A stretch of 56,790 bases of DNA from Saccoglossus kowalevskii (taxonomy: Eukaryota; Hemichordata; Enteropneusta; Harrimaniidae): NCBI RefSeq assembly GCF_000003605.2, contig NW_003109983.1, positions 23,843 through 80,632 on the forward strand, in the 5' to 3' direction. The notes under the pieces were generated by a model that was given only the letters and a program-made list of their open reading frames with translations, made no database searches and had not been told where the DNA came from. The position numbers and the translations under genes were made by a program. Numbering within the stretch: the stretch's first letter is position 1; each line of letters starts with the position of its first letter. Shown piece by piece: positions 4,084 through 20,541 of the stretch.

Positions 4084-4093
4084 TTACTCGCAT
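4084..4093 (-). CDS. Astacin-vWD exon 9: last 10 coding bases (R)-C-E-stop
   Basis: A good acceptor (GTATTTTTCAG) precedes 4093. Joined in phase 2, the exon reads A-TGC-GAG-TAA, completing Arg436 and adding Cys437, Glu438 and a stop. A cysteine just after the SWRV motif is exactly what a vWD domain needs to finish. AATAAA signals follow 150 bases on. Being so short, it rests on phase, splice site and domain logic only. Confidence 0.55.
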
Positions 4094-7000
4094 CTGAAAA
4101 ATACATTGATAAATTTTTCAAAATTATGGTGTATTTGTTTTGATAAACAATAACTCGACAGAACTATTCCTGCGTTTTTCATATGTTCTATGTTCATTTA
4201 AAGTGTCAAGAAATATATGGATAATTTGTAATGAATTATAATACAATTTACTATTTTCGAATGACATATTTTCTTCAAGTTATGTATAATAATCTGCATC
4301 GTTTTTGCAGTCCTTAACACCAACCATTTTTTAATAAAATAATTATTCCACACACGTTATTTAGTGTGTTCAATTGTTTACAGTGTGGCTTTTATATGTA
4401 CTCATCAAAAATATTAATAAAAAACCATTGTAACAGTGAAGCAAAGTTGGTTCATAATGCCGTGTGGCATTACGCTTTGTTTGCAATGGTCAATTTAAAA
4501 AGTACATACCTTTGGCCTGTCACTCTCCAGCTTTCTCCGAACGCAATAGCGTCAAGCACAGCAGCGCCATCGGGGGTTTGAAAGTCATTATGGGTGTCAC
4601 CATCGGCGTTACCCATCAAACCACATAGACGTCCATCGTATGCAGAGCCTTGTACAGATACATTTAAGACGTGTTTCCTCAGAGCCCATATCAAGGTGAA
4701 TGTTGTATTATTGGATGTGAATTCTAATGTAATCATGTTCTTTGCCTCTTGAATGCGGATTGCTCTAGCCATAGTAACACGACCTTTATTTCCCTGTGAT
4801 AACACAATGCATGTTAGAACATTTTGAAATAAGTTGTATGGATAATAATATGAAAATATTTTCTTTATTTTCGACCAGATACTTTATTTATTAGACGTAT
4901 GTATTGTGCAAGGGGTTAGTATACCTATACCATTTGAGACATATATTTTTAGTATATTACATAATGTTTTTAGGAATATTCCATAATGTCGTCGACCAGC
5001 CTATGACATGTCCATGATGACGTCATGATGAGAAACTTCGAAACTTTCAGCAATGAAACCTGTCAGTCTAAAAACAGTCAAATGAAACCCGCCACACATC
5101 AGTCACTATTAGTTGGCAGGGAACCAATTGATCGTAGTAATCGAGAATCAGTTGTGACTATGAGACAGAATTATAGCATAGTTCTATCGACTGTTAGAGA
5201 CGTATTGGTAATCAACAGCCTTTGGTGATTTGATGGAGGTTACGGGCAGTGGTGAATATTGTATTAGCTGAAAGTAGCCTAGTGTATCAGTCTACCACAA
5301 AGACACTAATTTACTTCAGAGAATTAATATAAGTCTCGACAACTATTCAGCATTGTTCTACGAGGTAGAGAGCATATATTATTGGCATTGAGCTGAGAAA
5401 TATCTGCAATCGATGACAGTGTTGTGCAAAGAATACCCGGTACATCCCGACGAATGAAATCGGGGAAAGAAAATCGCCCTTTATAGGTAATACCCTGTCA
5501 ATGACACGTTACTGCGACTTACTGTCAGCACGTCCATTCCATTAACAGTAGCATATTCCATCCCTACGGTAACATTGAAAGAAACTACTCTTGTTCTGAT
5601 GTGCTCGATAGTGCTGTCATTCCTTGGCTCAAATTTAACAGTGACTTCAAACTCGGGTTTATCAGAGGAGCAGTCTTTGAATAGAGTGTACCAGCATACA
5701 CCTTGGAAAGAATATGGGCGACCATCAAATGTCCTCAGGTGGGGATCGCCTGAAACTGTAATAAGAACGTCATTAAATATGTCATAATTTGAAAGTTCTG
5801 ATTTGCATATATTTTTGACAAATTAAAATGTTCTTGGCCCACTTTACTCCTTATACAAATGTTTGTCAAAATATAGTTTGTTTAATATTGATATCATATG
5901 GGAGATACTATGTATATTTCATTTGAAACTGACCTCATTTTGTGACAATACACACGAATATCTATCTGTCTAATTAGAATTCGACCTTTATTGAATAACT
6001 GATCAGACACCTCTATGATGAAATATATTATTTTATGAAAATGTGTGACAATATTTGTTGATATCATTTGTGGTCAGTGTGTAAAAACATGCAAACCATC
6101 TTCACATAGTTCCATTTGAAGAGGGTTCTTGCTGTAGCTGCGACACCGAACTAGTAGCATTGCGTGGACAAGGAATAATGTTTGGACACTGAACTATAGC
6201 AGTCAAACTCGGTGTGACAATCAAAATGTTATGTACAAGAAGATTATCCTACAGTTTATGTATGTAAGACCCAATATATATAGATGCCGATTTTCCCATG
6301 ATATGGAACCATCAACCTCGGGCATCAATGAATACATTTTGTATATACTTTCTCTGATGAAATTTTTAGTGTTGGAAACAAAAATAATAACTACCTCCTG
6401 GACTGGCATACATGGTATTAGCCAACAGAATATCAGCGGCGCTAAGACCAGTACGTTGGCCCATGAGTCCTTGGTCGTCTGGATTAACTGCGTCTATTGT
6501 GTTCAGGCCATTGGAGGTGAAATACTAAACACATTAAATGGATAAAGACAAGTATAACATGTAATTCAGAAAGGCGGTCAACTTAATAATTAATATTTCA
6601 GAAATATTATCTGAAATTGGCACAAAGTTTTAAAAAAAAGAAGTTTAAATCAATCTCAGAACATGTACTCACTGTCGCACCATAATGCATCAGAGATCCA
6701 ATGTCGTATGGCACTTGGTACGTATTAATAGTTCCCGTGTCGTATTTCTGAAAGTTACGCTCATAACCGGGTATGATATTCTCCTCGTTTATAACAACAT
6801 ACTCGTCTCTGTCCGGGCGACTTTGCTCGTGAAAGAAACCTATTGCATGACCTATTTCGTGCGCAATAGTACCCATCTGAAAGAACAACATAATATCCAG
6901 CAAACAGAGTACAGAAAATGACCAAGAAATGATACTAGTACTTTTTAGCATAATATATCAATCTTCGTAAAACATTATTTTGCATTATTCAACAATATTT

Positions 7001-10000
7001 GCCATTTCTGTATTTCCAGACACAGCTAGGTTCCACAGGGCTCCGATTGTGATTCTAGCTGTTCGTAATGAGCTAATTACTTACGTATGCACATCCGTTT
7101 CCAATAGAAATTTCCTGGGCTCCAGTAAAGACATGACCAACATATGACCAACATCTATTACATTAAACAACACATATATTTATGAAAGATTGCAAGAGTG
7201 AAAAACAATATATCGACAATATATCGGTTCTCGTACCAAGTAGTATTATCGCACACCATAAAATCGGCAGTTTCACTCATCTACTTTTGCGTGATAGTCA
7301 CTGAGTCTTTCAATTACCTACATGACAATTTAATGTTCAGTTGAAACACCATGAAAACGTTGCATGTGTTCGCCTCATTTAATATATGCACAAATCATGC
7401 GTTTTACTTCAGTGTGCTTATGTGATCGGGAAGAACACCAGGTGGGCCGGAAATCAACATCCCCCCACTAGTCATCAATTACCCAGGGAAAGTATCTATA
7501 GTATCTAAACATACTGTTTTACATAACACTTACACCATTCCCTTATACACCAATATCACATGTTTAGAAACTAAATCTAAAGTCAAATATTTTTTTGTCA
7601 CTGTCATCGGTGATATTCAATAATATAACAGTATATAGTAATGTGCCTGGGATACAGTAGCATTCATATACTGCATATATAAATAATACAATTATATTGG
7701 TTTTATTTATACAATGCTATATTCACGTTATTTCCCTATATTTAAGATAAATTGGGCACGGGGGAAAGCATGAAAATTACATAATAACTTTACCCGTCCT
7801 GCTTTGTGAAGCTTATGAAAGATGTATGTTCATCGGCATTATATTGTGGAAATCTAAGACTAGTTTTGCTCTCCCAGTGTTCAATTGCTGATAGTATTAC
7901 GTCAGTGTCGCCTGCACCTGTAAAGACATTAATCGTGATAATCACATCTAACTGTTGTTACGCATGATGTGATTTGTTGAGTCTCAGTCACATGACTTTG
8001 AACAAATACAAATGGGTATTACATGATATATCGCATGGATATCGCACTGAAACTACAGCGCGACAATACTACATATTGTCGTTCGCTACACTGGCGCTGT
8101 CCCGGTCACTGTTACTTTCGGGGCTGCTTTCAAGCATTTTGAGGAAATTTAGCCATCCAAAGTGGATATTAAGTAAGATACTCTGTTTTGATGTTAAGGG
8201 TATTCTTTATATGAAGCAAATAAGTACGATAACGCCGATTGAAACGTCCGATCCGGGATCGCTGTTGAGCGTTCTCCACTGTGAGCATTTCTACGCGACT
8301 TGTGATTTGTTGTAAATGGTAAATGTATGTAAATGTATGGCACGTTCGTGAGAAAATGGCGAGTGGAAAAAAAGATGTTTTAAATTCATTTCAAAAATTG
8401 GACACCCATTGCTGACACACAGGTACAAAAAATAGTTACCGTGTGTTTCGCAGTTTTTATTTTCAGCATGTATGTACGTATGCTATTGTATAATGTGTCA
8501 TTGTAATACATAAAATAAAACATTGTGTACTTCAAATATAAGTGTTGTTATTTTGTGCGAGAGCGGGTGTGATAGGTGTATGTTAGATGTAGTTGCGCAT
8601 GGTGGATGTCTGTTCGATGTGATAAAATAAATAACACATGTTGATTGGGGCAATATCACAATTTGTTGCCCTGAGCTGTTGGTCACCACACCTTGAGTGG
8701 GCAACAAATCGCGATATTAACCTCACAAACATGTGTTATTATTTAAATATACACTGACGTGAATGAGAAAAAAAAAACATGTATATCGCGTACAAAAAAA
8801 AAAAAATAGTACAGTGAACTTACTTTCGGGCTCGATTCTATAAGGCACAATACCATCTTCCCAACGTGTAGACAGGTCAGCATGAGCTTTTCTTGTTTCC
8901 AATCGGTTTGTTTGTGCTTCTATCTGTTTCTCAATTTGAGTACGCTGCTCTAACGTTAACTTCATATCAGATTCAAAAGTACCTTCACTTTCCAGCTCCT
9001 CTGGTCGCTCAACCTGCACATCAATTACATATATAAGCAAGATTTGTAATAAATCTCGGCGGCTAATATATATTTAGCAAAGAAACTCTCGGATATAAAT
9101 TAAATCATAGTTAACAACCGTCATCGTATTATTATGCTTGTAATAGGTGAACTGAGCACAAGATTGTAATAAAGGTTGGTCCAGGTTCCTCACAAAATCA
9201 CATAGGGAGGGTCTATGTGCTAGTATTTATGTTTGTTCGCATACGATGAATAAATACATAATTTATATCACCGAAGATGGGCCAATAAAAATGCAAACAA
9301 CTTTTTTCTTAACTATGCAGGTTTGCGGGTTACTATATAGCTATACTTTTTTTATATTTTGACATGCGAAAGAGCGTCCACGTTGTTTTATATAGGTTTA
9401 ATTATGTGGTCAACACGTTGTTTGAAATATTGCTAGAGGGGCAAACAACGTACTAATACCAGACGTAACGTAATAATACCAGACAAATATAGTATGGATA
9501 GTATGGATAAATGAGACAACAATATAGTGTGTAAGTTTCATGAATAACAAAAATGTACGTCAAAAAAGTTGAGAAAATGGATAATTTCCATAGTTATTTA
9601 CAAATACAAATATGTTTTACAACTATCATGTAAACAGAACAATGACTACTTTATAAGTAAATTAAATGGAAATTCCGGCTTCATATTTCACATCTAAATA
9701 ATATTTTGTTATTATTTATGTACAGCCTTGCAACTCTTGTTTTTTTTTTGAAAGCCACTGTCTGACATGAAACAGAGCCCCTTACTTAGGAATTTATGCT
9801 TTACAATAGTGCAATAAAGCAACATTCAACAAGAATCGTTTGATATTTTGCTTGGAGCGGGTTGCTAGTCAACTGAAATAATATATTCCGTAACCGTTCT
9901 AGCTTTCAAAGAGATATACATCTCTCAAACTATCTTGGATAAATTATCATAATTTCACTGACGTCAACGACCAGTTAATAAGCTGTCATTGATTAACTAA

Positions 10001-10804
10001 TAATTACATTTCAGTCAGTAAGGGTTTTGTCATGTGACATTATAAAAACAATGATTTGAATATAAGCCAGAATGAATGTGTCATTCACTCCGAATTGACT
10101 TCGAAACATTCTCCAGACATTCATCCATGGATTACAATTGTTTCCTTTGTTACTGATCGATTTGTTCAGATTGTAATTTCCTAAAAAAAATCTGTATTTC
10201 ATAATTTGGGAAAAGAGGAACTCTCCCCTAAACGAAAAGTGGGACTGTGACAATAACCTTTTCGTATATCTAACGGCAGCTGTATGTGGAAATTTGCAAA
10301 CAAACAAAACATTCCTCAAATTTCAATGAATACGGTGACCCCTCGCTACGTCACGGGTATTAGGGTCCAAGTAGGAAATGCGACTTAACAAGGGTTGTGA
10401 CTCATCAGGGACGGACATATTGAAAAATGACGTTAAATGACGACGACGTCAACATTGATTGTTTTATACCGATACTTCAATTGCTGATTAAATGCATAAA
10501 ACAACCGATTCGTTAGGCATTTTCCTTCACAGTTTCCACTAAATATCTCTACTTTGCAAAGCACGTTTATATGTTCTGGTTATCGCGTTATCCTCTCAAG
10601 TTTGTTTCTGGTTTATGAGAAAATATTGGAAAGATAAAACACCAGAAGAAAAATATTGTTTTAGCGTAATAACTTCATGTTGCTGGAGTGAACTCATAAC
10701 ATGAAAGATCATGACATGCTACTTGCCTTGTCTACATTACTCAGTGTCTTGGCATGGCAAACAAAGATAGATGCAGTGCTGAAGAAGATAACGTACTTCC
10801 ACAT
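4084..10804 (-). CDS. Secreted astacin (M12A) zinc metalloprotease with C-terminal vWD domain; 9 exons, 438 aa
   Basis: Exons on -: 10804-10727, 9013-8824, 7917-7794, 7154-7085, 6876-6673, 6524-6395, 5749-5523, 4793-4510, 4093-4084. They total 1317 nt and all phases match. Domains: signal peptide (about 1-18), propeptide with a helical segment and an FESD aspartate-switch motif (39-42), astacin catalytic domain (about 76-265), vWD domain (266-437). The zinc motif [18 protein letters not shown] (160-177) and Met-turn SLMHY (215-219) are intact, so an active secreted endopeptidase is expected. The Cys132/Cys152 disulfide is kept. The usual long-range pair is replaced by Ser109 and Ser263. The vWD domain starts [17 protein letters not shown] and contains [17 protein letters not shown] and MAM modules are absent. 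The first intron uses GC-AG. The last exon is the least certain. Substrate unknown; hatching, matrix or shell roles are only guesses. Confidence 0.88.
4510..4793 (-). CDS. Astacin-vWD exon 8: second half of vWD domain
   Basis: Acceptor TTATCACAG before 4793; donor AAAG|GTATGT at 4509 (phase 2). It encodes residues 342-435, including [18 protein letters not shown] (395-412), the vWD CGLCGNxxGD-type calcium loop, and [10 protein letters not shown] near the end, where vWD domains typically have an SWxV motif followed by the last cysteine. Confidence 0.92.
5523..5749 (-). CDS. Astacin-vWD exon 7: first half of vWD domain
   Basis: Acceptor TTACAGTTTCAG before 5749; donor ACA|GTAAGT at 5522 (phase 0). 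With the split Gly266 it reads [17 protein letters not shown] then [10 protein letters not shown], the canonical vWD start with Cys284 and Cys292. Two potential N-glycosylation sites (NDS 309-311, NVT 324-326) support an extracellular location. Confidence 0.88.
6395..6524 (-). CDS. Astacin-vWD exon 6: end of catalytic domain
   Basis: Acceptor GTTTAG before 6524; donor GGAG|GTAGTT (phase 1). It encodes residues 223-265, including IGQR-like [20 protein letters not shown] and then SPG. Family members normally end this motif LYxC. Here MYASP puts Ser263 at the cysteine position. Confidence 0.85.
6673..6876 (-). CDS. Astacin-vWD exon 5: zinc-binding site and Met-turn
   Basis: Acceptor TTCTTTCAG before 6876; donor ACA|GTGAGT at 6672 (phase 0). 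It encodes residues 155-222: [20 protein letters not shown] with zinc ligands His160, His164 and His170, catalytic Glu161, then ...SLMHYGAT with Met-turn Met217 and the fifth zinc ligand Tyr219. All catalytic residues are present. Confidence 0.95.
7085..7154 (-). CDS. Astacin-vWD exon 4 (70 nt)
   Basis: Acceptor GTAATAG before 7154; donor TAC|GTAAGT (phase 0). It encodes [20 protein letters not shown] then CAY (132-154). These residues hold both cysteines of the local catalytic-domain disulfide (Cys132 and Cys152). Too short for a plain ORF scan; found by matching phase and family motif. Confidence 0.88.
7794..7917 (-). CDS. Astacin-vWD exon 3
   Basis: Acceptor TCTTTACAG before 7917; donor GG|GTAAAG (phase 2). 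It encodes the helix [13 protein letters not shown] (100-112) and ISFTKQDG (124-131). In the family this helix reads ExKTCxRF. Here the cysteine is Ser109. Confidence 0.88.
8625..8744. mobile_element. Foldback/MITE-like hairpin in astacin intron 2
   Basis: Two arms of about 46 bases (8625-8671 and 8699-8744) are near-perfect inverted complements, separated by a 27-base spacer. The outer ends share AACACATGTT and the inner ends GGGCAACAAAT. The match includes most of the arm with only scattered mismatches. No ORF is present. Typical of a non-autonomous foldback element. Confidence 0.75.
8824..9013 (-). CDS. Astacin-vWD exon 2: propeptide and start of catalytic domain
   Basis: Acceptor ATGTGCAG before 9013; donor A|GTAAGT with the intron starting at 8823 (phase 1). 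It encodes residues 27-89: an acidic propeptide with FESD (39-42, equivalent to the FxGD aspartate switch that keeps astacins latent), a charged helical stretch, then [14 protein letters not shown]. The W-x-G-I-V-P-Y pattern marks the start of mature astacins. Confidence 0.88.
10727..10804 (-). CDS. Astacin-vWD exon 1: start codon and signal peptide
   Basis: ATG at 10804-10802 gives [18 protein letters not shown] then KTLSNVDK, a classic short signal peptide with likely cleavage after HA. The exon ends at 10727 in AAG, followed by GCAAGT, a strong GC-type donor in phase 0. This matches exon 2, which enters in phase 0. The nearby GT alternative (GTAGCA) would give phase 1 and break the frame. 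Confidence 0.75.
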
Positions 10805-20067: not shown

Positions 20068-20541
20068 TCAGTATAGAGTTGGTGTATCATTCAAAAATGC
20101 TATATTTTTAGACGTCACATACAAATTTATTTTATTTTTAGCAAGGTAGCGGGGAAAGATTCGATTTTTGGCGCATGCTTGTTGTTTTGATAATTTGTGA
20201 CCTGACGCGAAAATTAATCTTTGTTTAGAATCTTGTACCTGTTCTAGAGTGAAGGCCACTGCTTTAGTACTGGCATCGCAATAAATTTCAAATTCTTTGT
20301 TAAAATCTGGGAATCCTAAAACTGGATAGTTACATAACTTATCTTTCAACTCGACAAATGCCTGTTTACATTTGTCTGTCCATACGAATTTAGTGTTAGA
20401 TTTCGTTAGGTTATATAACGGACTAGCAATCTCTGAAAAAATTCTAATGCATTTTCTGTAATAATTTGCTAGACCAGTGAAAGGTCTGACTTCGCGTACT
20501 GTGGTGGGACGAGGATAATTCGCAATAGCCGATATTTATTA
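20068..20541 (-). pseudogene. Ty3/gypsy-type retrotransposon pol fragment (RT thumb/connection and start of RNase H)
   Basis: Read on -, the open frame after TAA at 20544 gives ISAIANYPRPTTVREV, then FTGLANYYRKCI, SEIASPLYNLTK, FVWTDKCKQAFVELKDKL, FPDFNKEFEIYCDASTKAVA, then SGHKLSKQ before similarity is lost. This is the standard order in gypsy pol: PRPTTxxE-xxFxGLxNYYRxxI, then APLxxLTK, then W-xxxC-xxAFxxLK, then the RNase H start YxDAS. No protease, integrase or LTR is attached. It is 5'- and 3'-truncated, ending in a likely frameshift near the C-terminal end. Non-functional on its own. Confidence 0.88.

Follow-up and report, generated by a model that had tools for sequence, protein, structure and literature searches.

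Paired loss of a long-range disulfide in an astacin-type protease gene of the hemichordate Saccoglossus kowalevskii

Can an astacin-type protease dispense with its long-range disulfide, and how would a gene come to lose both of the cysteines that form it? The question is raised by a gene on the minus strand of a 56,790-nucleotide stretch of Saccoglossus kowalevskii DNA (assembly GCF_000003605.2, contig NW_003109983.1, positions 23,843 to 80,632), hereafter the window, in whose numbering all coordinates are given. The disulfides of crayfish astacin are listed as 42-198 and 64-84 in PMC9848320. The original prediction held that both cysteines of the first pair are serine in the window gene, and this is borne out: exon 3 (7794..7917, minus strand) reads ESKTSLRF, with the codon AGT at the Cys42 position (7859..7861), and exon 6 (6395..6524, minus strand), which encodes the C-terminal part of the catalytic domain and ends MYASPG, has AGT at the Cys198 position (6402..6404). 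The interval originally singled out, 6395-7917, runs from the low end of exon 6 to the high end of exon 3. By the definition of a two-disulfide animal astacin as one having both Cys42 and Cys198, the gene falls outside that group. We suggest that the 42-198 bond is an optional brace and that its two cysteines were lost one after the other, by compensation, on the branch leading to this gene, a reading that we hold with a probability of roughly 0.7.

The gene belongs to a known family. It scores 209.3 bits against the Pfam Astacin profile (curated cut-off 22.5), which places it in astacin family M12A, and 87.3 bits against VWD (cut-off 22.9), and its sequence matches animal astacins of solved structure, namely tolloid-like 1 (3EDI), meprin alpha, zebrafish ZHE1 and crayfish astacin (1AST). 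The zinc motif, Met-turn and second disulfide had been described as intact, and they are: exon 4 (7085..7154, minus strand) carries Cys64 and Cys84 in GCWSYVG and NGCAY, and exon 5 (6673..6876, minus strand) carries HEXXHXXGXXHE and the SxMHY turn in the form SLMHYG. Tolloid-like 1, meprin alpha and ZHE1 show these same features in alignments, but Cys42 is present in all three and Cys198 in tolloid-like 1, where the window gene has Ser at both. None of these three, nor crayfish astacin, is known to have a von Willebrand factor type D (vWD) domain. When near-invariant columns were defined as those with one residue in at least 90% of at least 20 animal rows, 30 columns qualified, and the window gene deviates at exactly two of them, the bonded pair, while keeping the other 28. 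The chance of hitting one specified pair among 30 columns is 1 in 435, a post-hoc figure, since the site was picked for its oddness. No animal astacin lacking the 42-198 pair is named in the titles or abstract openings among the literature matches listed.

The closest comparisons come from the same genome. A search of the assembly (572 Mb, 4830 contigs) with the Pfam Astacin profile gave 51 exon matches, assigned to the window gene and to 31 further loci; these counts are lower bounds, and some of the loci may be pseudogenes. Cys42 is present in all 28 of the other loci in which the site is readable (it is unreadable in L019, L021 and L157), and Cys198 in all 27 (unreadable in L002, L015, L027 and L157), both sites being readable in 25 of the 31. 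The nearest paralogues, L061 and L062 on contig C1851, keep both cysteines, encoded by TGT in each at site 42 and by TGT and TGC, respectively, at site 198. They share the window gene's combination of astacin and vWD domains, with exons 3-9 equal in length and no insertion or deletion over 352 codons, and are 81-82% identical to it in the catalytic domain. In a tree built without the two cysteine columns, which took in 27 of the 31 other loci (L021, L027 and L030, which were too short, and L157 stood outside), the window gene joins L061 and L062 in a clade with support of 97/97. As the paralogues in this clade have both cysteines, both losses are placed on the window gene's own branch. A separate observation concerns the pair itself: L061 and L062 have a synonymous divergence of 0.41 across the catalytic exons but of 0.03 across those for the vWD domain, a pattern suggestive of gene conversion in the vWD half.

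Two near-invariant residues gone might also mark a gene in early decay toward a pseudogene, with the cysteine losses as part of that decay, and the Gly to Ser change in the prodomain FXGD motif could be read in the same way, as could the higher ratio of nonsynonymous to synonymous change (dN/dS) of the prodomain exon, 0.64 against L062 over 63 codons by the NG86 method. By the same method, however, dN/dS is 0.27 and 0.26 between the window gene and its two paralogues and 0.23 between L061 and L062. A three-taxon codon model puts omega on the window branch, which there includes the stem to the paralogues, at 0.30 over the whole stretch and at 0.24 over the catalytic exons. For these two data sets, respectively, twice the log-likelihood difference (2dlnL) is 39.5 and 20.8 against omega = 1, which is rejected, and 0.46 and 0.54 for a separate omega on the window branch, which is unneeded. 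The window gene is thus under continued purifying selection. Over 352 codons it shows neither indels nor stops, its splice sites and the 28 other near-invariant columns are kept, and FESD occurs in four paralogue loci that retain their cysteines, so that decay is very improbable. A change of FXGD to FESD was also considered as one linked to the cysteine loss, and was rejected on the same four loci (L005, L008, L013 and L016), which have FESD together with both cysteines.

The evidence for the substitutions comes from a single assembly, and they could in principle reflect an error in assembly or base calling, a minor allele, or a gene whose pair is restored by alternative exons. Such an explanation would have to produce the same kind of change in two separate codons in two exons. 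Alternative exons that restore the pair had been named as what would refute the prediction; a search for substitutes found no convincing exon 3 or exon 6 in the window. Among the 40 of 76 candidates in the assembly that were scored, none is a further, nearly identical copy of exon 3, the next best matches being paralogues at 83%. We regard this explanation as distinctly unlikely, if a shade less so than decay. The intron adjoining exon 3 contains a dispersed repeat at 7938-8060, where 38 of the 41 genome matches of a 301-base query fell, at 78-89% identity.

Comparisons with bacteria showed that astacins without this bond have broad precedent there. The best 80 of at least 114 confirmed bacterial loci are 26-47% identical to the window protein, and most of them lack the 42-198 bond. 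Forty-six of the 80 have no Cys at the canonical columns 42 and 198 and keep Cys64 and Cys84, four of these 46 having a shifted pair; the canonical pair is found in only three (L067, L068 and L078, from Sphaerisporangium). One of the forms resembling the window gene, L063 from Granulosicoccaceae, has TSI and MYATD at the two sites and keeps Cys64 and Cys84, but is bacterial, about 42% identical and without a vWD domain. Myroilysin (PDB 5GWD, 5ZJK and 5CZW) is a bacterial astacin relative of solved structure. The original prediction had taken the paired change to be tolerated or selected and not a sign of decay, and this position is supported by the purifying selection, the absence of indels over 352 codons, the near paralogues with both cysteines and the pairwise behaviour of the two sites in bacteria.

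Three further features of the wider family were observed. The three Sphaerisporangium loci group with animal astacins, near the S. kowalevskii locus L017, and are candidates for transfer from an animal. In four other bacterial loci (L064, L072, L083 and L111) one Cys lies two residues beyond site 42 and another a few residues beyond site 198, an arrangement that is possibly a register-shifted version of the 42-198 bond. Viral relatives were represented by one short match only, among 43 pattern stretches.

Given that the bond is missing from most of the 80 bacterial astacins, the window gene might never have had it, having retained the state of a bacterial-like ancestor. The gene nests among animal genes that bear the cysteines, where it groups with L061 and L062 (97/97), and we find this account scarcely credible. 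For the family as a whole, a 75-row quick tree, which took in 27 of the 31 other own-genome loci and 44 of the 80 bacterial rows (all but L107-L142), mixes some bacterial rows with animal rows and puts the animal row L018 among bacteria, so that on this tree the direction of change may be either bacterial loss or animal gain of the bond.

How might paired loss by compensation have proceeded? In other animal astacins the 42-198 bond ties the N-terminal half of the catalytic domain to the domain's end; it would be a dispensable brace, the domain of the window protein being held by zinc, core packing and the remaining 64-84 disulfide. One T-to-A substitution along the branch of the window gene could have removed a first cysteine, and with a free thiol left behind, a second substitution of that type, removing the partner, would have been neutral or advantageous. 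That the product folds and is active is an inference, as are the sequence of the two losses and the role of the free thiol. An earlier suggestion that packing on the vWD domain might substitute for the bond finds no support in the comparisons, as L061 and L062 retain the disulfide although their vWD domain and its short linker are the same. Ten bacterial astacins were also scanned, nine of them lacking the canonical pair, and in none was there a vWD domain.

A selected loss would attach more meaning to the junction between the two domains, favouring altered motion of the end of the catalytic domain together with the vWD, or a better fit to the redox or thermal milieu. The vWD domain begins, at GDPH, just a few residues after the C-terminal anchor of the bond, so that loss of the bond could free the junction, and both sites turned to Ser in a gene under strong purifying selection. 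Against this, the paralogues keep the bond with the same vWD and linker, the domain is missing from the bacterial forms scanned, and no omega shift is seen on the window branch, though two sites would hardly move omega; we consider such selection unlikely. Somewhat less likely again is a specific adaptive form, in which, without the 42-198 staple, the catalytic C-terminal end moves with the attached vWD and this vWD partner sets activity or stability. If true, a vWD-set protease would be a property absent from the two-disulfide paralogues and from the vWD-free bacterial forms.

Several points weigh against paired loss by compensation. One assembly supplies the whole basis for the window gene and its predicted protein, and six of the 31 other own-genome loci are unreadable at one or both sites. 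The bacterial precedents are just 26-47% identical, so their tolerance need not carry over, and few independent groups (Sphaerisporangium, one Bacteroidota clade and L111) underlie the test of co-occurrence. In a second alignment L064, L072 and L083 look mixed, having Cys at column 198 but lacking it at column 42; from inspection of the sequences we read this as the shifted pair, and the count of seven changes on that alignment, which scored these three as Cys-bearing, is unreliable. On balance the window gene is best explained as a real, gene-specific and intact variant of a known family, in which an ordinary paired loss with broad bacterial precedent has occurred.

The gene runs from exon 1 at 10727-10804 down to exon 9 at 4084-4093 and encodes, in order, a signal peptide, a prodomain, the astacin catalytic domain, the vWD domain and a stop after (R)-C-E; all introns have AG acceptors, and all donors are GT bar an apparent GC after exon 1. 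The signal-peptide exon (10727..10804, minus strand), placed by its sequence and its phase fit with exon 2, seemingly ends at a GC-AG intron with donor GCAAGT, and is the least certain because no homologue was found in the upstream stretch of L062. Exon 2 (8824..9013, minus strand), equal in length in L062 and with no counterpart found in the fetched stretch of L061, encodes the start of the catalytic domain and a prodomain reading FESDM, in which the Asp of the switch is kept and L062 has FEGD; the motif FXGDI is described as common to animal orthologues in PMC9848320. Pfam and paralogue comparison place the two halves of the vWD domain in exon 7 (5523..5755, minus strand) and exon 8 (4510..4793, minus strand), and in-frame acceptors 6 bases further on are possible for exons 3 and 7. 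Exon 9 (4084..4093, minus strand; acceptor TTTTTCAG), a tiny exon kept in L061 and L062, supplies the fourth vWD cysteine, so that the even count originally claimed, two catalytic and four vWD, holds for the mature product; the signal peptide carries one more. The predicted product is a secreted zinc protease of the astacin type, whose prodomain has an Asp switch and whose C-terminal domain is vWD.

A vWD search of the same genome gave at least 157 exon matches, with 150 of 323 candidates scored, and most among the matches listed are on contigs for which no astacin exon was listed; these point to a large vWD family of other architecture. Elsewhere in the window are a fragment of a retroelement reverse transcriptase RNase H-like domain at 20071-20535 (Pfam, 63.3 bits) and a pure TA repeat of about 50 copies at 31-131, and an Rfam scan of the window gave no match.

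The three genes form a natural experiment within one genome on the role of a long-range disulfide, two with the bond and one without in the same architecture. More broadly, the sequences compared suggest that the 42-198 bond is mainly an animal feature that may be gained or lost as a unit, and as such a unit it bears on the movement of astacins between animals and bacteria.
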